This document shows positions 5,293-13,633 of a DNA stretch of 37,528 nt, in pieces; position 1 is the first letter of the stretch, and each line of letters starts with the position of its first letter. The DNA lies in NCBI GenBank assembly GCA_012798805.1, contig JAAZMM010000109.1, forward strand, positions 1-37,528, in the 5' to 3' direction. The DNA is from Bacteroidales bacterium (lineage in GTDB: Bacteria > Bacteroidota > Bacteroidia > Bacteroidales > UBA932). A program made the position numbers and the translations under genes. Below the pieces are notes generated by a model, which searched no databases, was not told the DNA's origin, and was given only the letters and a program-made list of their open reading frames with translations.

Positions 5293-5637
5293 ATGAAACT
5301 AAAAGAGATAGTCGCCCTTGTTGAAGGAAAGGTGGTTTGTGGTGAACAACACCTTGATGATTCTGTTGAGTATGCCTTTTCTTCCGATCTGATGAGTGAT
5401 GTGCTAACGCTGAGAATTACAGATTTTCTTCTTGTGACGGGACTTAGCAATATTCAGGCTATAAGGACGGCCGAGATGTCCGACCTTAAACACATTCTTA
5501 TTGTGCGTGATAAGAAAGTTACCCAGGATATGATAGAGCTGGCGGAGGACAACGATATGACCATCATCACTACGGAGTTCTCTATGTTTAAGACTTCCGG
5601 ACTGCTCTTCAGTGCAGGCCTTAAGCCTGTTTATTGA
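5293..5637 (+). CDS. DRTGG domain protein, copy 1 of sensor operon
   Basis: A 114-residue single-domain protein of the DRTGG type, the domain also found fused to CBS domains and phosphotransacetylases, with unknown ligand. Visible features are an N-terminal helix with V-E-G-K-V, the segment AFSSDLMSDVLTL, a hydrophobic core strand KHILIVRD, and the ending FKTSGLLFSAG corresponding to the family's C-terminal Thr/Gly motif. It is paralogous to the protein at 7387-7719: both share (S/V)SDL(M/L)SDV and (T/F)(S/T)GLL. First gene of a six-gene run before the hydrogenase. The next start codon lies within three bases of its stop. Likely a ligand- or protein-binding partner of the neighbouring ATPases; this is inference from context. 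Confidence 0.88.
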   Translation: MKLKEIVALVEGKVVCGEQHLDDSVEYAFSSDLMSDVLTLRITDFLLVTGLSNIQAIRTAEMSDLKHILIVRDKKVTQDMIELAEDNDMTIITTEFSMFKTSGLLFSAGLKPVY

Positions 5638-5639
5638 TT

Positions 5640-6050
5640 ATGGAACTCGTTTATAAAGTAGAAGGGGGTGACTTCAACAAGGCTGGTCATGCCTCTTCGC
5701 AAATCAAGAGAGTGCTCAAACAACTCGGAGTGCCTCCTGTGATAATCAAGCGTGTCGTGGTGGCTCTCTATGAGGCAGAGGTCAATATTGTAGCCCACGC
5801 ATGGCGCGGAGTTATTACCGCAGGCATAGATGAGTCCGGTATCAGGGTGGTTCTCGATGACGAGGGCCCAGGTATCCCAAACATAGAGAAGGCTATGGAG
5901 AAGGGATATTCTACCGCCTCACAAGAGGTTCGCGATATGGGTTTTGGTGCCGGTATGGGGCTGCCAAATATACGTTCCAATGTGGATGATTTCAAAATTT
6001 CTTCGGAGGTCAACAAAGGTACGGTTTTAGATTTTTTCATTAAATTCTGA
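5640..6050 (+). CDS. RsbW/SpoIIAB-like GHKL ATP-binding protein
   Basis: A 136-residue GHKL ATPase of the anti-sigma-factor serine kinase (HATPase_c_2) class. The N-box is VALYEAEVNIVAHA, the G1 box DDEGPGIPN, and the G2 box GFGAGMGLPNI, all well kept, so ATP binding and possibly Ser/Thr kinase activity are likely. No sigma factor or STAS anti-anti-sigma gene is nearby, so the usual partner-switch role is not supported; partners may be the DRTGG proteins. I chose the ATG at 5640 over a TTG at 5634 that overlaps the previous stop. Homologous genes are known beside bifurcating hydrogenase genes in Thermotogae and Clostridia. Confidence 0.9.
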   Translation: MELVYKVEGGDFNKAGHASSQIKRVLKQLGVPPVIIKRVVVALYEAEVNIVAHAWRGVITAGIDESGIRVVLDDEGPGIPNIEKAMEKGYSTASQEVRDMGFGAGMGLPNIRSNVDDFKISSEVNKGTVLDFFIKF

Positions 6051-6056
6051 TAATAT

Positions 6057-7397
6057 ATGGTTTCGGGTGAACATTGTAGATACTACCGTGGACTGGAGAT
6101 CATCTCTGATCTTTGCGTCGGTTGCTCACACTGTATGAGAGTGTGTCCGACTGAGGCTTTGAGGGTCAATGGTGGTAAAGCTACAATACATCCCAATCTC
6201 TGTATCGATTGCGGCCGTTGTTATCGTGAATGTCCCACAAGTGCAATAAGGGTGGTGGATGACGACTTTGATCACATTTTTGATTATAAGCATCGTCTGC
6301 TGCTAATACCGAGTCTCTTCTATTCTCAGTTTGAAGATAGGATAGAGATAGAGGAAGTCAACAATATCATAGGCTCGCTGGGTTTTACCGAGGTAAGTCC
6401 CGTGGAGCTTGGCGTGGATTATCTCATTGAAGAAATGAATCTCTATATCGATGAGGCTTCGCCTGACTTGAAACCGGTAATTTCTTCCTATTGCCCCGCC
6501 GTAGTGCGTCTTATACAGGTGCGCTTCCCCTCGTTGGTGGATAATATAATGACGCTCTTACCTCCTCTGGAGATTACTGCCCAATATTATAAGAGTAAAT
6601 ACCGTGAAGCCGGCATACCTGAGGATGATCTGGGTATATTTTATCTTACTCCCTGCGTAGCCAAGATTGCTGCAGTCAAAGATCCTGTGGGAGGCTATGT
6701 TTCTCCGATTACAGGAGTAATCAATATGGATTTGGTTTACAGCAAAGTGATGATGGCACACCGTAACCACACTGTTACAGAGAATAACATTCGCGTCAAT
6801 GAGGAAATTACTTCCAACGCCATCCGCTGGTCCACTACCCGTGGAGAGTCCAATGCCACGCGTGGTGTCGCTTTGGCTATTGACGGTATGACCAATGTGA
6901 TTGAATTTTTGGAAAAGGTGGAGAATGGTGATATAGAAGGAGTGGATTTTCTGGAACTCAGAGGATGTGATGAGTCCTGTTCCGGTGGAATACTGGTTAG
7001 GGGCAATCGTTTTCTGGTGGCTGACGGTCTCCATAAGAGGGCTTCCACAGCCCCGTGGGTCAATCCATATCTTAAGGATTTTCGCAAATATTGCGCTGAC
7101 TATATGAGGTTTGACAATGTGCAGCCACGTGTCTTTATGAAGTATGGAAGGGATATAAAGGAGGCGATCCGTAAGATGGAACAGGTGCGTAACCTAAAGC
7201 ACATATTGCCCGGTATCGATTGCGGAGCCTGTGGCTCTCCCGGCTGTGAGGCTCTTGCCGGGGATATCGTTAATGGTGAAAGAAATATTAACAACTGCGT
7301 CTTCATGCAGATTGCCAATGAAAGAAAAGGCACGCTGCAGGTGGAAGAGGCCATCGAGCTGATGGAAGAAATATGGGGTAAAAGATATGACTATTAG
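6057..7397 (+). CDS. [FeFe]-hydrogenase-like H-cluster sensor protein with ferredoxin and terminal Fe-S domains
   Basis: A 446-residue Fe-S protein. Two [4Fe-4S] motifs come first (Cys20-23-26-30 and Cys49-52-55-59). The hydrogenase large-subunit domain follows with altered loops: SSYCP (residues 143-147) in place of TSCCP, TPCVAK (198-203) in place of MPCxxK, and GCDESC (303-308) in place of ACPGGC. All four cysteines expected to hold the H-cluster (146, 200, 304, 308) remain, but the proton-relay Cys is Tyr145 and the loop-2 Glu is Ala206. A third Fe-S module lies at the C terminus (Cys389, 392, 397, 414; CGACGSPGC type). This suits a low-turnover H2 or redox sensor rather than a production enzyme, though no PAS domain is present as in classic HydS. 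Its end overlaps the next gene by 11 bases. Confidence 0.88.
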   Translation: MVSGEHCRYYRGLEIISDLCVGCSHCMRVCPTEALRVNGGKATIHPNLCIDCGRCYRECPTSAIRVVDDDFDHIFDYKHRLLLIPSLFYSQFEDRIEIEEVNNIIGSLGFTEVSPVELGVDYLIEEMNLYIDEASPDLKPVISSYCPAVVRLIQVRFPSLVDNIMTLLPPLEITAQYYKSKYREAGIPEDDLGIFYLTPCVAKIAAVKDPVGGYVSPITGVINMDLVYSKVMMAHRNHTVTENNIRVNEEITSNAIRWSTTRGESNATRGVALAIDGMTNVIEFLEKVENGDIEGVDFLELRGCDESCSGGILVRGNRFLVADGLHKRASTAPWVNPYLKDFRKYCADYMRFDNVQPRVFMKYGRDIKEAIRKMEQVRNLKHILPGIDCGACGSPGCEALAGDIVNGERNINNCVFMQIANERKGTLQVEEAIELMEEIWGKRYDY

Positions 7398-7719
7398 AGA
7401 ATTAGTAAAAAAAATGGACCTGCAGGTATTCTCTGGCGAGAATGGACTGGACAGGGAGATTGAGGGTGGCTATGTTTCAGACCTGCTCTCTGATGTTATG
7501 GGATTTTCACAGGAAGGTGAGGTATGGGTCACTCTCCAAACACACAAAAACATAATGGCAGTGGCCTCTCTCAAAGATCTGGCTGCCATTGTGCTGGTCA
7601 AGGGACTCAAACCTGATGAGGATGCAATGGAGGTCTCAAATGAAGAGGAAATACCCATTCTTGGTACCGACAAATCCTGTTTTGAATTTACAGGCTTGCT
7701 CTGGTCGCTTATAAAGTAA
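7387..7719 (+). CDS. DRTGG domain protein, copy 2 of sensor operon
   Basis: A 110-residue DRTGG-type protein, paralogue of the one at 5293-5637. It shows GGYVSDLLSDVMG, a strand VWVTLQTH, a central LAAIVLVKG and the end SCFEFTGLLWSLI. Function is unknown; in other proteins the domain is regulatory. Its ATG lies 11 bases inside the H-cluster protein gene, so translation of the two is coupled and the proteins are probably made in equal amounts. That coupling suggests direct interaction with the H-cluster protein. The next gene starts five bases after its stop. Confidence 0.88.
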   Translation: MTIRELVKKMDLQVFSGENGLDREIEGGYVSDLLSDVMGFSQEGEVWVTLQTHKNIMAVASLKDLAAIVLVKGLKPDEDAMEVSNEEEIPILGTDKSCFEFTGLLWSLIK

Positions 7720-7724
7720 GAGTT

Positions 7725-8471
7725 GTGGAGCTAGGGTCATACAGAGGGGATTTGCACACTCACACTCTTCTCTCCCCCTGCGGTGACATCGAAATGACCC
7801 CGGAATTCATAGTCCGCCGCGCCCGGGAGAAGGGGTGCAGTATTGTGGGCATAACCGACCACAACACCACCCGTCAAGCTCCGTTGATACGTGAACTTGG
7901 TATGGAAAATGATATTTTGGTGCTTTGTGGAGCGGAAATTACCACAAGAGAAGAAGTGCACTGTCTCGGTTTTGTTGAGGATCAGGAGCGGCTTGATATG
8001 TTGCAGGAGTATCTATCCAAACACCTTCCCCCGATACCTAACGTTCCTGAAAAATTTGGTTATCAGGTCTGGGTGGACCGCGATGAAAACATAGTCGGCG
8101 AAGAGGAGTATCTTCTCATCTCCGCCATTGATCAGTCCATAGAACAAATAGAATCCTTTATCAGGAGTTTGGATGGCATTTTTGTGCTTGCACATATAGA
8201 CAAAAGCCGTTATTCGGTACTAAGTCAACTTGGATTCATTCCATTTGATCTAACCCCGGATGCTCTCGAGATCTCCCCCCGGTGTGATCTTGATCAATTG
8301 CTCCAAACTCACAAATACCTCTCAAAATATCGTTTCATTCGTTCCTCGGATGCCCATTATCAGGAGGATTTTGCCACTTCCGGCTCTTATTTCCACATAA
8401 AAGAACTTACATTTGCGGAGGTAGCAATGGCTATCAGGGGGCAGGAGGGGAGGTTTGTTTCACTTAATTGA
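7725..8471 (+). CDS. PHP domain metal-dependent phosphoesterase
   Basis: A 248-residue PHP-fold protein. Metal-binding motifs are in order: DLHTHTLLSPCGD near the N terminus, GITDHNT, CGAEITT, VLAHIDKS and RSSDAHY near the C terminus, so a trinuclear-type site looks intact. Family members hydrolyse phosphomonoesters or cyclic phosphodiesters (histidinol phosphatase, RNase AM types), so this one could remove a phosphate placed by the neighbouring GHKL ATPases; this is inference. The start is GTG at 7725, five bases after the previous stop; no in-frame ATG fits because the first motif begins at residue 7. It ends just before the second GHKL gene. Confidence 0.92.
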   Translation: MELGSYRGDLHTHTLLSPCGDIEMTPEFIVRRAREKGCSIVGITDHNTTRQAPLIRELGMENDILVLCGAEITTREEVHCLGFVEDQERLDMLQEYLSKHLPPIPNVPEKFGYQVWVDRDENIVGEEEYLLISAIDQSIEQIESFIRSLDGIFVLAHIDKSRYSVLSQLGFIPFDLTPDALEISPRCDLDQLLQTHKYLSKYRFIRSSDAHYQEDFATSGSYFHIKELTFAEVAMAIRGQEGRFVSLN

Positions 8472-8482
8472 CTTTTGAAAGT

Positions 8483-9010
8483 ATGAATGACCTTGCAATG
8501 CATATCCTGGACATTGTCCAAAATTCCATTTCGGCGGGAGCCAAAAATATATGGATTGAGGTGCTGGTGTCGGTGGCCCGCGATCTGCTCTCCATCTCCA
8601 TACGTGATGACGGTAAGGGAATGACCCCTGAGATGATAGCAAAGGTAACGGATCCCTACTGTACTACCCGTACTACCCGTAAAGTGGGACTCGGACTTCC
8701 ACTTTTCAGACAGACTGCAGAGCAGGCGGGAGGCTCTCTTTCCATTGAGTCCACCCTCGGAGTAGGTACTACCGTAACGGCGAATTTTGGCCTGAATCAC
8801 ATAGATCGTCCTCCTATGGGAGACCTGGCCAATGCCTACGTGCTGCTGCTCGGTGCCAATCCCGATATTAACCTGATACTGCACTATGTTACGGATGAAA
8901 ATGAGTTTAGTGTCAGTACGAGAGAAATCAATGAGGCTCTGGATGGATTGCCGCTTAACGATCCTCAGGTTATGAGAATGATTTATGAGATGGTCGAAAG
9001 TAACATCTAA
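8483..9010 (+). CDS. GHKL histidine-kinase-like ATPase without a dimerisation domain
   Basis: A 175-residue protein made of a HATPase_c domain (N-box HILDIVQNSISAGAK, G1 DDGKGM, F/G2 DPYCTTRTTRKVGLGLP, final GVGTTVTANF) and a C-terminal extension of about 65 residues that I do not recognise. It lacks any DHp phosphoacceptor or sensor domain, so it must act on a partner. I chose ATG 8483 over the TTG at 8468, which overlaps the PHP stop; ATG 8498 (MHILDIV) is another possible start. Last gene of the six-gene sensor set; the hydrogenase genes begin 122 bases later. Confidence 0.88.
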   Translation: MNDLAMHILDIVQNSISAGAKNIWIEVLVSVARDLLSISIRDDGKGMTPEMIAKVTDPYCTTRTTRKVGLGLPLFRQTAEQAGGSLSIESTLGVGTTVTANFGLNHIDRPPMGDLANAYVLLLGANPDINLILHYVTDENEFSVSTREINEALDGLPLNDPQVMRMIYEMVESNI

Positions 9011-9057
9011 AAACTTTCTTTTTGCTAATGAGAAATAATATAACTATTTTTACACCC

Positions 9058-9065
9058 TATATTTG
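9058..9065 (+). promoter_or_regulatory. Candidate -7 element for the hydrogenase operon
   Basis: TATATTTG matches TAnnTTTG, 67 bases before the first hydrogenase ATG. No TTG is found 17-23 bases upstream. An imperfect TGTTAG-AACA-TTAAAC dyad at 9092-9107 lies between it and the start codon. Confidence 0.35.
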
Positions 9066-9084
9066 GGAAAACTCTGTTTTTCCC
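9065..9084 (+). terminator. Possible weak terminator or leader hairpin
   Basis: GGGAAAA (9065-9071) pairs with TTTTCCC (9078-9084) across a 6-base loop and is followed by TTTATT. It lies between the sensor set and the hydrogenase genes and could partly separate their expression. The stem is short, so this is tentative. Confidence 0.35.
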
Positions 9085-9132
9085 TTTATTATGTTAGAAC
9101 ATTAAACACTTTATAATATAAAATTCACCAAT

Positions 9133-9534
9133 ATGAACAAGATTAGATCGCTTGATGATTTGCGCAAAATGAAGCAAAACCTCAAGTCGGACATTTCAAT
9201 CCGCGAGAAAAGTGATAAAGCGGAGGAGATGGTTAGAATCAGGGTAGCAATGGCTACCTGCGGTATTGCAGCCGGCGCACGTGATGTGATGAATACATTG
9301 CTGGCGAAGGTCGAAAAAGATTCCCTCCCCGTAGTTGTCACCCAGGGCGGCTGTATGGGCTATTGTTATGCAGAGCCTACCATCGAAGTTGCTATTCCGG
9401 GCAAAGATCCCGTAGTTTTCGGTAACGTTGACTCAGCCAAGGCGCTTGAGATCGTTGACAAGTACATTGTCGGAGGAGAACTCATTGATGGCGTTATTCC
9501 GGTTAATTACCAGACAATCCAGGAAAAGCTCTAG
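9133..9534 (+). CDS. HndB-like thioredoxin-fold (2Fe-2S) ferredoxin subunit
   Basis: A 133-residue protein resembling HndB of the Desulfovibrio Hnd hydrogenase and the N-terminal ferredoxin domain of NuoF-like HydB. MATCGIAAGARDVMN (Cys43) and GGCMGYCYAEP (Cys74 and Cys78) are the cluster region. Only three cysteines are in the expected places; the first Cys of the usual C-x4-C pair is Val38, a deviation I recall from HndB-type proteins, so whether a [2Fe-2S] cluster binds is uncertain. It begins the hydrogenase operon, with the NuoF-like gene two bases after its stop, so it is probably a fourth subunit or an electron-transfer adaptor of the complex. Confidence 0.9.
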   Translation: MNKIRSLDDLRKMKQNLKSDISIREKSDKAEEMVRIRVAMATCGIAAGARDVMNTLLAKVEKDSLPVVVTQGGCMGYCYAEPTIEVAIPGKDPVVFGNVDSAKALEIVDKYIVGGELIDGVIPVNYQTIQEKL

Positions 9535-9536
9535 TT

Positions 9537-11327
9537 ATGGTACAGATAAAAATGCATTTACTGGTATGTGGCGGTACAGGTTGCCGCGCATCCGAGAGCG
9601 CTGTTCTGGTTGAGCAGCTAAATCATCAGCTTAAGCTTAATGGGCTTGCAGATGAGGTTAAGGTTATTACCACAGGTTGCTTTGGTTTCTGCGAAAAGGG
9701 ACCCATCGTTAAGGTAATTCCCGACAATACCTTCTACACTAATGTTACACCCGAGGATGCCGAAGAGATTGTAAAAGAACATGTGCTCAAAGGCAGGAAA
9801 GTGAATCGTCTGCTATATGAGGATCCGGAGACACAGGAGCATGTGAGTGATTCCAAACACATGGAGTTCTATCAGAAGCAGGTTAGAATAGCTCTGCGCA
9901 ACTGCGGATTCATCGATCCTGAAAATATTGACGAGTACATCGTTCGTGACGGCTATGCCGCTCTTGGTCAGGTGCTCGCATCCGACCCTAAGGAGACTAT
10001 TGATATCATCAAGAAGTCGGGCCTGAGGGGCAGGGGAGGTGCCGGTTTTCCTACCGGTCTCAAATGGGAGATAGCAGCAGGCAACAAGGCTGATCAGAAG
10101 TATGTGGTTTGTAATGCTGACGAGGGTGACCCGGGAGCCTTTATGGACCGTTCCATTCTTGAGGGTGACCCCAACTCCATTATTGAAGCTATGGCAATTT
10201 GCGGTTATTGCATTGGAGCAACCAAAGGTCTGATATATATCAGGGCCGAGTATCCTCTTGCAATTCATCGTCTCGAGATTGCCATCAAGCAGGCTCGCGA
10301 ATATGGTCTTCTTGGAAAAGATATTCTGGGTAGCGGATTTGATTTTGATATCGAACTGCGTCTTGGTGCCGGAGCATTTGTCTGCGGTGAAGAGACTGCA
10401 TTGATCCACTCTATGGAGGGATTCCGCGGAGAACCCACTATCAAGCCGCCATTCCCGGCGCAGTCCGGATATTTGGGCAAACCGACAAACGTTAATAACG
10501 TCGAGACCTTCGCCAATGTGCCCCCTATTATTCTCAAGGGGTGGGAGTGGTTTAATTCCATTGGTTCGGAGAAGTCCAAAGGCACCAAGGTGTTTGCACT
10601 TGCAGGTAAGATCAACAACGTGGGTCTTATCGAGGTTCCCATGGGTACCACCCTTCGCGATGTGATTTTTGAAATTGGAGGCGGTATCAAGGATGGTAAG
10701 CGCTTCAAGGCTGTACAGACCGGAGGTCCTTCCGGCGGATGTCTGACGGAGCAGCATCTCGATACCCCCATTGACTTTGAACATCTCGCCGCTGCCGGCT
10801 CAATGATGGGTTCCGGTGGTATGATTGTGATGGATGAAGATGACTGTATGGTATCCGTTGCCAAGTTCTATCTCGACTTCATCGTTGAGGAGTCTTGTGG
10901 AAAATGCGCCCCATGTCGTATCGGCAGCAAGCGTATGCATGAGATCCTTGAGAAGATATGTCAGGGTAAAGGCACTATGGAAGATCTCGATTACCTCGAA
11001 AATCTCGGTAAGGTAATCAAGGATACCGCTCTTTGCGGTCTGGGCCAGACGGCACCCAATCCGGTGCTCTCCACCTTGCTATATTTCAGAGATGAATATG
11101 TTGCTCACGTGATAGACAAGAAGTGCCCTGCAGGACAGTGTAAAGCTCTTAAGAGTTACACTATCGATCCTGAAAAGTGTATCGGATGTACTCTGTGCGC
11201 TCGCACTTGTCCTACCAATGCCATCATTGGCGATAAGAAGGTACCTCACGTAATCGACCAGTCGAAATGCATCAAGTGTGGTGCTTGTTATGATAAATGT
11301 AAGTTCGGTGCAATCCAAATACGCTGA
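9537..11327 (+). CDS. hydB: Electron-bifurcating hydrogenase NADH-binding subunit (HydB/HndC, NuoF-like)
   Basis: A 596-residue flavoprotein that exchanges electrons with NAD(P)H in the bifurcating hydrogenase complex. The N-terminal thioredoxin-like [2Fe-2S] domain has CGGTGC (Cys11, Cys16) and GCFGFC. The NuoF core has GLRGRGGAGFPTGLKW (FMN/NADH site), NADEGDPGAFMDR, and GAGAYVCGEETAL-type residues (GAGAFVCGEETAL). The SCGKCAPCRIGS motif binds the [4Fe-4S] cluster near residue 450, with ALCGLGQ downstream. The last 60 residues hold two ferredoxin motifs, CIGCTLCARTCP and CIKCGACYDKC. Length is as in Thermotoga HydB. It shares an operon with the HndB-like gene before it and hydA eight bases after. 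Confidence 0.96.
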   Translation: MVQIKMHLLVCGGTGCRASESAVLVEQLNHQLKLNGLADEVKVITTGCFGFCEKGPIVKVIPDNTFYTNVTPEDAEEIVKEHVLKGRKVNRLLYEDPETQEHVSDSKHMEFYQKQVRIALRNCGFIDPENIDEYIVRDGYAALGQVLASDPKETIDIIKKSGLRGRGGAGFPTGLKWEIAAGNKADQKYVVCNADEGDPGAFMDRSILEGDPNSIIEAMAICGYCIGATKGLIYIRAEYPLAIHRLEIAIKQAREYGLLGKDILGSGFDFDIELRLGAGAFVCGEETALIHSMEGFRGEPTIKPPFPAQSGYLGKPTNVNNVETFANVPPIILKGWEWFNSIGSEKSKGTKVFALAGKINNVGLIEVPMGTTLRDVIFEIGGGIKDGKRFKAVQTGGPSGGCLTEQHLDTPIDFEHLAAAGSMMGSGGMIVMDEDDCMVSVAKFYLDFIVEESCGKCAPCRIGSKRMHEILEKICQGKGTMEDLDYLENLGKVIKDTALCGLGQTAPNPVLSTLLYFRDEYVAHVIDKKCPAGQCKALKSYTIDPEKCIGCTLCARTCPTNAIIGDKKVPHVIDQSKCIKCGACYDKCKFGAIQIR

Positions 11328-11335
11328 TAATAATT

Positions 11336-13102
11336 ATGGACAAAATAAAACTCACTATAGATAATATGCCTGTAGAGGTTGTTAAAGGTACAACCATATT
11401 TCAGGCTGCACGTCAGGTCGGTATTAATATCCCTGCACTGTGCTATATGAACCTGGAGCATCTGGGTGTGGAAAATCGCCCCGGTGCCTGCCGCATTTGT
11501 GTGGTAGAGGTAGAGGGACGCCGCAATCTGGCTCCTTCCTGCTCCACTGACTGTACTGAAGGTATGGTTGTTAAAACCAATACTCCAAAAGTACTCAATG
11601 CTCGCAAAGTGGTTATGGAACTAATCCTCTCGAACCACCCTAATGATTGCCTCGCATGTCCTTCAAACAATAAATGCGAGTTGCAGACACTTGCTGCAAC
11701 ACTTGGTATAAGAGAGATACCCATGGTAGAAAACGCTGCGATGTCCACCTATCGTAAGGATCACTCACTCTCTTTGCAGAGAGATATGGACAAGTGTATT
11801 CTATGCCGCCGTTGTGAGACCATGTGTAACGATGTACAGACTGTAGGTGCTCTGGGAACCATCAATCGTGGCTTTATCTCGGTTGTAGCCCCTGCTTTCG
11901 AACAGGACCTTGCGGATTCCTCCTGTGTATTCTGTGGACAGTGCGTTGCTGTTTGTCCTACCGGAGCTTTGACCAGGACCGATGATACAGGAAGAGTCTT
12001 CAAGGCTTTGGCCGATCCTACCAAGACCGTTGTGGTACAGACGGCGCCTGCCGTTCGTGCTGCTCTGGGAGAGGAGTTCGGTATCAAGCCCGGTACAAGT
12101 GTTACCGGTAAGATGGCTGCTGCATTACGCAGACTTGGATTTGACAAGGTGTTCGATACCGATTTTGCTGCTGACCTTACCATTATGGAGGAGGGAACAG
12201 AGCTTCTCGGACGTATTGGAGCCTTCCTTGGGGGTGACACTTCGGTTAAACTTCCGTTACTTACCTCATGCTGTCCTGCATGGATTAATTTCTTTGAACA
12301 GAATTACTCCGATATGCTGGATCAGCCCTCTACTGCCAAATCGCCTCAGCAGATGTTTGGAGCGGTAGCCAAGAACTATTTGGCCAAGAAAATGGGTGTC
12401 AAGAGGGAGGATCTCGTTGTAGTATCGGTAATGCCTTGCATTGCCAAGAAATATGAGTGTACCAGAAAGGAATTCTCGGTGGATGGCAATCCCGATGTGG
12501 ATATCTCCATTTCTACCGTAGAGCTGGCTTCCATGATTAAGATGGCCAATATCGATTTTGTTTCGTTACCGGATGAGGATTTTGATCATCCTCTGGGCGA
12601 ATCTACCGGTGCGGCTGTGATCTTCGGTGCTACCGGAGGTGTTATGGAGGCTGCCGTACGTACTGCTTATGAGGTATTTACCGGCAAGACACTTGAGCGT
12701 CTCGATTTCAAGGAGCTCCGCGGTTTTGAGGGTATCCGTACGGCAAGTGTTGATTTCAACGGTACTACGGTTAATGTCTGCATCGCACACCAGTTGGGCA
12801 ATGCCCGTAAGGTAATGGATGGTGTCCGTAGTGGAGAATTAAATTTCCACGCAATTGAGGTGATGGCATGCCCCGGAGGCTGTATCGGTGGAGCCGGACA
12901 GCCCTATCACCTGGGTGACTCATCAGTACTTAAGGCCAGAGCAGAATCACTCTATAAAGAGGATGCCGACAAACCCTTGCGTAAGTCTCACGAGAACCCT
13001 TACATCACCAAGCTCTATGAGGAATTCCTTGGTGAGCCGATGAGCGAACTTGCACACCATTTGCTCCATACACACTATTTTGACAAACACCATAAAATAT
13101 AG
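11336..13102 (+). CDS. hydA: [FeFe] hydrogenase catalytic subunit (HydA/HndD, group A)
   Basis: A 588-residue cytoplasmic catalytic subunit that reduces protons to H2 (or the reverse). Domains in order: plant-type [2Fe-2S] (Cys36, 52, 55, 69), His-Cys [4Fe-4S] (His101, Cys105, 108, 114), two [4Fe-4S] clusters (Cys154-157-160-164 and 197-200-203-207), and the H-domain. All three canonical H-cluster loops are present: TSCCPAW (310-316), MPCIAKKYE (366-374) and ACPGGCIGGAGQP (511-523). A C-terminal small-subunit-like segment (YEEFLGEPMSELAHHLL) closes the protein. This is the multi-cluster M3 arrangement used with NuoE/NuoF-like partners, here encoded on both sides. Maturases HydE, F and G are not in the window. 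Confidence 0.97.
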   Translation: MDKIKLTIDNMPVEVVKGTTIFQAARQVGINIPALCYMNLEHLGVENRPGACRICVVEVEGRRNLAPSCSTDCTEGMVVKTNTPKVLNARKVVMELILSNHPNDCLACPSNNKCELQTLAATLGIREIPMVENAAMSTYRKDHSLSLQRDMDKCILCRRCETMCNDVQTVGALGTINRGFISVVAPAFEQDLADSSCVFCGQCVAVCPTGALTRTDDTGRVFKALADPTKTVVVQTAPAVRAALGEEFGIKPGTSVTGKMAAALRRLGFDKVFDTDFAADLTIMEEGTELLGRIGAFLGGDTSVKLPLLTSCCPAWINFFEQNYSDMLDQPSTAKSPQQMFGAVAKNYLAKKMGVKREDLVVVSVMPCIAKKYECTRKEFSVDGNPDVDISISTVELASMIKMANIDFVSLPDEDFDHPLGESTGAAVIFGATGGVMEAAVRTAYEVFTGKTLERLDFKELRGFEGIRTASVDFNGTTVNVCIAHQLGNARKVMDGVRSGELNFHAIEVMACPGGCIGGAGQPYHLGDSSVLKARAESLYKEDADKPLRKSHENPYITKLYEEFLGEPMSELAHHLLHTHYFDKHHKI

Positions 13103-13111
13103 GATAGAGAT

Positions 13112-13585
13112 ATGAAAATCGAATTACATGATAGCCATATCAGGCAGATTAAAGAGATATGCGACTCATTTGACAACAATCCGGGTGAGTTGATTAATGT
13201 TCTGCACAAGACACAAAATGTCTTCGGATACCTTCCCGAAGAGATCCAGAGGGTTATAGCCCGCAATCTCGGGATCCCAGTAACCAGGGTTTATGGTGTT
13301 GTGAGCTTCTACTCATTCTTTACTATGAAGCCCAAGGGCAAATATGCCGTGTCGCTTTGTATGGGAACGGCTTGCTATGTGCGCGGAGCCGAAGATGTTC
13401 TGGATGAACTAAAGAAAGAGCTTGGAATTGAAGTCGGCGGTGTGACCGAAGATGGAAAATTCTCCCTCGATTGTCTGCGTTGCGTTGGTGCTTGCGGACT
13501 GGCTCCCGTGCTTATGATAGGAGAGAAGGTTTATGGCCGTCTTACTCCTTCCATGGTAAAGGGTGTTCTTGCAGAGTATGAATAA
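13112..13585 (+). CDS. hydC: Bifurcating hydrogenase NuoE-like subunit (HydC/HndA)
   Basis: A 157-residue thioredoxin-fold [2Fe-2S] protein. The cluster ligands are CMGTACYVRGA (C-x4-C) and CLRCVGACGLAP, with the GACG pattern typical of NuoE. The N-terminal helical bundle has NVFGYLPEEIQRVIA and VYGVVSFYSFF, as in the family. It completes the set needed for confurcation of NADH and reduced ferredoxin to H2. The gene follows hydA by nine bases and is followed by a 15-bp hairpin. Gene order here is HndB-, HydB-, HydA-, HydC-like, different from Thermotoga hydC-hydB-hydA. Confidence 0.96.
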   Translation: MKIELHDSHIRQIKEICDSFDNNPGELINVLHKTQNVFGYLPEEIQRVIARNLGIPVTRVYGVVSFYSFFTMKPKGKYAVSLCMGTACYVRGAEDVLDELKKELGIEVGGVTEDGKFSLDCLRCVGACGLAPVLMIGEKVYGRLTPSMVKGVLAEYE

Positions 13586-13633
13586 TGGATGATGGGACGT
13601 CAGGTACGTCTCTGATCTTATACCACGTTTGAT

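Follow-up and report, generated by a model that had tools for sequence, protein, structure and literature searches.

What are six small genes doing when they are packed against the operon of an electron-bifurcating hydrogenase? The question arises in a contig from a Bacteroidales bacterium (GenBank assembly GCA_012798805.1, contig JAAZMM010000109.1), all 37,528 nucleotides of which we refer to as the window. Positions 5293–9010 hold six co-directional open reading frames (ORFs) on the plus strand, upstream of the genes for a ferredoxin (Fd), HydB, HydA, and HydC. The six encode, in order, a DRTGG protein (DRTGG1), an RsbW/SpoIIAB-like GHKL ATPase (RsbW in gene orders), an H-cluster-type protein (HydS), a second DRTGG protein (DRTGG2), a PHP phosphoesterase, and a second GHKL ATPase (GHKL in gene orders). 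An earlier note, made from the DNA alone, had described them as a tightly packed signalling module with gaps of 32 bases or fewer. Its gene order stands and the spacing is tighter still, with successive gaps of −4, +6, −11, +5, and −4 bases and then 122 bases to the ferredoxin gene; genes 2 and 6, read here from TTG codons, may in fact start at ATGs a few codons downstream. The families it had named agree with Pfam, DRTGG2 scoring 24.7 bits against the DRTGG model, slightly below the cut-off of 25.2. How anaerobes divide electrons among H2, ferredoxin, and NADH depends on electron-bifurcating enzymes, for which we know of no established post-translational control.

The six genes form a real conserved module. 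A scan of a genome collection with a HydS profile returned 30 related loci, all from Bacteroidales or Bacteroidota records; in 28 of these all six genes lie on one strand in identical order, the remaining two being cut by contig ends, so the set is more than a chance arrangement. Among 295 sampled Bacteroidales genomes, the HydS profile matches 85 (E ≤ 4.9e-74, well separated from the following match class at 1e-42), and the PHP profile (E ≤ 1e-50) matches 87, spread over 60 of 184 genera. Both occur in 82 genomes, HydS only in 3, PHP only in 5, and neither in 205 (Fisher p about 1e-62, a statistic that ignores phylogeny). The HydS-only genomes (G069, G145, and G177) comprise two of a different sub-type and one fragment; the PHP-only genomes (G032, G071, G089, G146, and G149) comprise four modules that lack HydS and one that starts at a contig edge. 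Outside the Bacteroidales, 2 more HydS genomes were found among 296 sampled Bacteroidota, both with the six genes in canonical order. The clostridial evidence consists of one published table and one record (L039), Subdoligranulum variabile, in which five module genes share one strand and GHKL, Fd, HydB, HydA, and HydC are divergent. A scan of viral contigs with the HydS profile gave no match, and loci L151 and L152 gave no module matches. The families thus co-occur well beyond the lineage of the window, which supports the earlier note in treating them as one module.

Gene order reveals a finer structure. We tallied 87 loci: the four HydS-less loci and those of 83 HydS genomes, the remaining two of the 85 being excluded (G005, which is divided between two contigs, and G177, a fragment). 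The canonical order DRTGG1-RsbW-HydS-DRTGG2-PHP-GHKL occurs in 65. Among the others, three place the second half before the first; six hold the first half alone; five have no separate GHKL gene (one PHP-GHKL fusion, three contig-end cuts, and G029, where none was found); two read DRTGG2-(DRTGG1-RsbW fusion)-HydS; four lack HydS; one has GHKL apart; and one is cut. The module is therefore made of two units, A (DRTGG1-RsbW-HydS) and B (DRTGG2-PHP-GHKL), each holding one DRTGG protein, one GHKL ATPase, and one effector, and the units can separate, swap, or fuse. Unit B adjoins HydABC while unit A lies on a different contig in G132, its genes are grouped elsewhere from unit A in G183, G148, and G120, and it lies ≈27 kb from unit A on one contig in G001. 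In G218 PHP alone was seen, at a contig end away from unit A, and in G096 (L134) DRTGG2 adjoins a PHP gene broken into two frames, again apart from unit A. The fusions join partners of the same unit: DRTGG1-RsbW in G069 and G145, which belong to different families (279 and 272 aa, the DRTGG part scoring 31.4 bits, over the cut-off, in one and 24.2, just under it, in the other), and PHP-GHKL in G217 (427 aa). No constant gene precedes DRTGG1 (L140 and L096, for example, have a Rex repressor there), which makes DRTGG1 the first gene of the set. The earlier statement that it includes no DNA-binding protein holds as well; a Pfam scan of the six window proteins found no STAS domain, sigma factor, or DNA-binding protein.

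The enzyme beside the module is usually, but not always, an [FeFe]-hydrogenase. The window HydA is an NADH-dependent [FeFe]-hydrogenase of group A6 by NCBIfam, and the ferredoxin gene is kept between module and HydB in relatives. Fd/HydB lies within 1.5 kb downstream in 51 of the 65 canonical loci, and in three the available stretch is too short to judge, one of these being the window, where the enzyme genes are known to follow. The other 11 are not beside HydABC despite >4 kb of downstream sequence. We rejected the idea that these are hydrogenase-free genomes, since Fe_hyd_lg_C and HydA searches found HydA elsewhere in all 11. A further HydA match of 500 to 700 bits lies near 28 of the tallied loci, that of L090 being an A6 gene cut by a contig end. 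In Parabacteroides distasonis all six genes are in order, beside gyrA and an aminopeptidase gene. Across the 295 Bacteroidales genomes, A6-type HydA (E ≤ 1e-250) occurs in 112, the module in 90, and both in 84, so that A6 HydA accompanies 84 of 90 modules as against 28 of 205 genomes without one.

Six module genomes fall outside this association at the same threshold. A HydA search of G001 found none at E ≤ 1e-80; G050 (L105) has HydB and HydC with no HydA between them; in G247 the A6 HydA is cut by a contig end; G069 and G145 (L138 and L127) carry the module beside NuoE-NuoF and a subunit with weak molybdopterin matches (by Pfam in G069 only); and in G089, whose module lacks HydS, a formate-dehydrogenase-like molybdenum subunit (L142:12761-15463, Molybdopterin 289 bits) sits between HydB and HydC. 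The next gene in L138 encodes a protein containing a DHODB Fe-S domain. Two loci from Bacteroidota outside the Bacteroidales (L149 and L150) combine the module with HydC, Fd, HydB, an Fe-S subunit without Fe_hyd_lg_C, and [NiFe]-hydrogenase genes, assigned by Pfam in L150 (NiFeSe_Hases 130 bits, Oxidored_q6, FlpD) and by reading only in L149. Passages of PMC9304861 on published Bfu enzymes likewise describe a BfuBC core that accepts many partners. From this variety it follows that the set tracks the bifurcating core more than hydrogenase chemistry. Direct control of hydrogenase activity, the output suggested in the earlier note, is too narrow, given the [NiFe] and formate-dehydrogenase-like neighbors and the 11 canonical loci away from HydABC. 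A cassette that stays with the bifurcating core whether its partner is [FeFe], [NiFe], or formate-dehydrogenase-like would be a strong candidate for post-translational control.

The individual proteins suggest what kind of control this might be. At E ≤ 0.001, every Protein Data Bank (PDB) match of an RsbW-like ATPase profile was an anti-sigma F factor (SpoIIAB) chain (best 4e-11), and Glu47 and Asn51, which correspond to the catalytic Glu and Mg-binding Asn of SpoIIAB, are kept in 91 of 91 rows. The DRTGG alignment covered 90 DRTGG1 and 90 DRTGG2 rows, made up of sequences with profile scores of 80 or more together with the fusions and those from four outgroup loci; Asp32, Ser35, and Thr49 are invariant in all 180 rows, and Ser31 varies in 10. 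The DRTGG profile also matched designed Pizza proteins in the PDB, which we discounted as repeat artefacts. The AlphaFold2 model of the PHP protein is a confident PHP fold (predicted local distance difference test score, pLDDT, 97.8) whose best Foldseek match was PfuEndoQ (6.4e-13), followed by TM0559 and then by RNase AM and the amidohydrolase 2yb1. Its likely metal ligands, His11, His13, His46, Glu71, His79, His157, Asp209, and His211, are invariant in 50 rows. The second ATPase carries a conserved C-terminal domain of ≈70 aa, and its model (pLDDT 90.1) matches MutL and histidine-kinase ATPase domains at ≈1e-6. Pfam found HisKA/DHp in neither ATPase, and a two-component histidine kinase system was rejected on this ground.

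Our preferred reading, to which we assign a probability of about one half, is a cytoplasmic signalling cassette dedicated to HydBC (Bfu) bifurcating enzymes, a phospho-circuit resembling a partner switch in which DRTGG fills the role of STAS and PHP that of PP2C. Through its Fe-S clusters, whether or not these include a [2Fe] subcluster, HydS would sense ferredoxin redox state and/or H2, and the state of HydS would set the activity of the SpoIIAB-like kinase. This kinase would in turn add a phosphate to DRTGG1, possibly also to DRTGG2, on the invariant serine of S-D-L-[LM]-S35-D-V; PHP, which pairs with the second ATPase in this scheme, would strip it; and the DRTGG proteins, in free or phosphorylated form, would bind the HydBC core, or else a shared partner, and tune it. 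What the sequences establish is the gene set with its conservation, two units, fusions, retained catalytic residues, and varied enzyme partners; each phosphorylation step, the direction of control, and the physical target are predictions. The module shares with the RsbW/SpoIIAB partner switch the kinase fold, the catalytic Glu/Asn pair, and a small partner with one invariant serine (Ser35, the candidate phosphorylation site); unlike that switch, it has no STAS antagonist, sigma factor, or PP2C within the six genes. It also differs from HPr kinase/phosphatase, since DRTGG2 (110 aa) matches Hpr_kinase_N alone and lacks the C-terminal kinase domain. A fuller version, in which DRTGG is the serine-phosphorylated partner of the SpoIIAB-like kinase, PHP is the eraser, the circuit directly tunes any Bfu enzyme, and HydS is a plug-in that in some lineages carries [4Fe-4S] clusters only, is tentative.

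Several observations weigh against the cassette reading, besides the canonical loci that stand away from HydABC. Ser35 may be structural, and the sole PDB alignment across it, to HPr kinase, is weak and gapped. Activity of the second ATPase is uncertain, because Asp15 stands where MutL-type ATPases have Glu. The variants in G069 and G145 are without PHP and the second ATPase, and four modules are otherwise kept without HydS; no single sensor or eraser is therefore indispensable, and the place of the H-cluster protein in a sensing module, as the earlier note had it, fails for these four. Twenty-eight of the 112 genomes with A6 HydA have no module, so it is not essential to the enzyme. Finally, most of the surveyed genomes are metagenome-assembled, and phylogeny is not accounted for in the co-occurrence tests.

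HydS is where a redox input would enter. It has two N-terminal [4Fe-4S] motifs, an H-cluster-type domain, and a C-terminal FeS domain. Cysteines 146, 200, 304, and 308 of the H-domain are present in 87 of 87 HydS sequences, as are the other Fe-S cysteines apart from Cys23 (83 of 87). Cys23 is lost in HydS of L138 and L127 (G069 and G145). The Lys after H-domain motif 2 is kept in 84 of 87. At the position of the proton-relay Cys (HydS 145; CpI C299) stand Phe (78), Tyr (8), and Ala (1); at that of M353 (HydS 198), Thr (82), Ser (4), and Ala (1); and at that of M497, Arg in 82 of 87, the C299, M353, and M497 numbering being taken from a passage of PMC8163306. In a tree of HydS sequences from the surveyed loci, the window HydS belongs to a no-PAS clade that stands apart from PAS-type proteins and includes one clostridial member (support 100/100). 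The PAS-type group here means long HydS, L105 and L142 being placed in it by length and neighbors; Pfam found no PAS domain in the long HydS of L105.

By domains, residues, and operon layout, HydS resembles the group D (M2e) putative sensory [FeFe]-hydrogenases. It shares with them the H-domain, the N-terminal [4Fe-4S] motifs, the C-terminal FeS domain, and the loss of the proton-relay Cys; as in group D, Pfam finds no PAS domain in the window HydS up to E 0.1. The replacement of M353 by a hydroxyl residue is the value expected from passages of PMC8163306, which also place a histidine-kinase-like ATPase next to HydS. The position five genes ahead of a trimeric bifurcating hydrogenase is that of Cthe_0335 relative to Cthe_0340-0342 in a clostridial operon tabulated in PMC3561251. 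The Arg at M497 differs from the Leu of Tam HydS (PMC8163306), a single published member whose residue there does not define the group. New relative to these passages on group D are the full six-gene set, its two units, the HydS-less forms, and the partners that are not [FeFe]-hydrogenases.

Group C (M2f) HydS is also alike in joining an H-domain to FeS and ferredoxin domains within a hydrogenase operon. Its PAS domain and the SpoIIE-type phosphatase (PP2C) that accompanies it are missing from the window module, and a canonical group C sensor was rejected for the window HydS on account of the missing PAS domain and the separate clade. PAS_8/PAS_9 and SpoIIE matches do occur in L037 (G000 contig C45, 60000-75878), the second hydrogenase locus of the source genome, which holds Rex, a PAS-type HydS (565 aa), a SpoIIE-type phosphatase, NuoE, NuoF, and HydA. 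A SpoIIE-type phosphatase gene and a long HydS also adjoin the module in L054 and L105, and such PP2C phosphatases could serve as an extra eraser. With the Bfu family the downstream enzyme shares its type and the variety of catalytic partners; in the passages of PMC9304861 on that family and on the A. mobile NiFe operon with hisK/hydD/hydP, it is the enzyme that is treated, the accessory set being merely mentioned. Within the open-licence literature, we found no paper joining DRTGG, hydrogenase, and PHP domain, and searches on DRTGG and hydrogenase returned unrelated work only. The cassette would supply the missing circuit of the group D "sensory" hydrogenases and points to one serine and one kinase. 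For the group C counterpart hfsB, a passage of PMC5707799 reports that deletion raises ethanol yield in several thermophiles.

Whether HydS carries a full H-cluster bears on the strongest rival, in which such a HydS measures H2 and the kinase, by way of a regulator encoded elsewhere, passes the signal on to hydrogenase-gene transcription, a scheme already put forward for group C HydS. The kept H-domain cysteines and motif-2 Lys fit this, as does the binding of an H-cluster by published group C and D HydS (parts of PMC8163306 and PMC10055695). HydF exceeds the cut-off in 173 of the 295 Bacteroidales genomes and is present in 75 of the 85 HydS genomes, missing in 10. In G001, HydS is the sole Fe_hyd_lg_C protein, yet HydE, HydF, and HydG are kept. 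Against this stands G466 (10 contigs, 99% complete), where HydS is again the sole Fe_hyd_lg_C protein and HydG, the only maturase searched, was not found. HydE, HydF, and HydG were all undetected in 9 of 24 HydS genomes chosen for an unusual locus or HydF result (G289, G105, G205, G003, G096, G050, G043, G154, and G072), including 3 of 3 Parabacteroides-like genomes of family f105 (99% completeness), where the HydS tree also places P. distasonis. All nine carry other Fe_hyd_lg_C proteins, so the puzzle touches their hydrogenases too, and missed detection is possible. The Arg at M497, the Phe or Tyr replacing the proton-relay Cys in 86 of 87, and the absence of a transcription factor from the set also count against this rival, which we consider rather unlikely. 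Because G466 and G001 point opposite ways, we dropped HydF co-occurrence as proof of H2 sensing by HydS, which may contain a [2Fe] subcluster in some lineages but not in others. The sensor role proposed in the earlier note accordingly fares unevenly, with an H-cluster favored in G001 and contradicted in G466.

A role in assembly appears improbable. The GHKL ATPases and DRTGG proteins would then be ATP-driven chaperones inserting Fe-S clusters or flavin into HydBC, HydS an Fe-S scaffold or electron donor, and PHP a nucleotide phosphatase. Such a role would explain why the set tracks HydBC whatever the catalytic subunit and why the second ATPase is MutL-like rather than kinase-linked, and a passage of PMC8880783 assigns HydD, HydP, and HisK near a NiFe enzyme to "maturation and/or regulation." It fits poorly with the 28 A6-HydA genomes that manage without the module and with the first ATPase, which matches a protein kinase, SpoIIAB, and no chaperone. 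In addition, heterologous production of HydABC from other organisms has yielded active purified enzyme in the absence of such genes. Anti-sigma control, with the RsbW-like protein holding a sigma factor that DRTGG1 releases, draws on the closeness to SpoIIAB and is very improbable, since the six genes encode neither a sigma factor nor a STAS protein and the upstream gene is not constant.

The genes of the module and of the enzyme operon that follows it in the window are collected in Table 1.

Table 1. Genes of the six-gene module and of the adjoining enzyme operon in the window
Feature	Coordinates	Strand	Assignment
DRTGG1, 114 aa, unit A gene 1	5293..5637	+	Pfam DRTGG 27.2 bits (cut-off 25.2); motif S31-D32-L-M-S35-D36-V
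RsbW/SpoIIAB-like GHKL ATPase, probable Ser/Thr protein kinase, unit A	5634..6050	+	Pfam HATPase_c_2 43.9 bits
HydS, unit A	6057..7397	+	Pfam Fe_hyd_lg_C 77.1 bits, plus ferredoxin (Fer4) and FeS domains
DRTGG2, 110 aa, unit B gene 1	7387..7719	+	Hpr_kinase_N 34.7 bits (over cut-off)
PHP phosphoesterase, unit B	7725..8471	+	Pfam PHP 38.2 bits
Second GHKL ATPase, unit B	8468..9010	+	Pfam HATPase_c 63.3 bits
[2Fe-2S] thioredoxin-like ferredoxin, enzyme operon gene 1	9133..9534	+	Weak Pfam/NCBIfam matches
HydB, BfuB-type NADH/FMN subunit	9537..11327	+	Pfam Complex1_51K, NADH_4Fe-4S
HydA, [FeFe]-hydrogenase catalytic subunit	11336..13102	+	NCBIfam NF040763 896 bits (cut-off 765)
HydC, NuoE-like	13112..13585	+	Pfam 2Fe-2S_thioredx 172 bits

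Inspection by eye turned up a few further neighbors. Some Bacteroidales loci have extra genes on either side of the module: in L012 a sirtuin-like gene (12925-13632) separates GHKL from the ferredoxin gene, and upstream of DRTGG1 lies a GNAT-like gene (8115-9230), with similar genes in L013 and L027. Elsewhere in the window, positions 748-2232 encode a 494-aa protein in which a long Gly-X-Y collagen-like stretch precedes a C-terminal part that resembles the adjoining ORF at 30-692.

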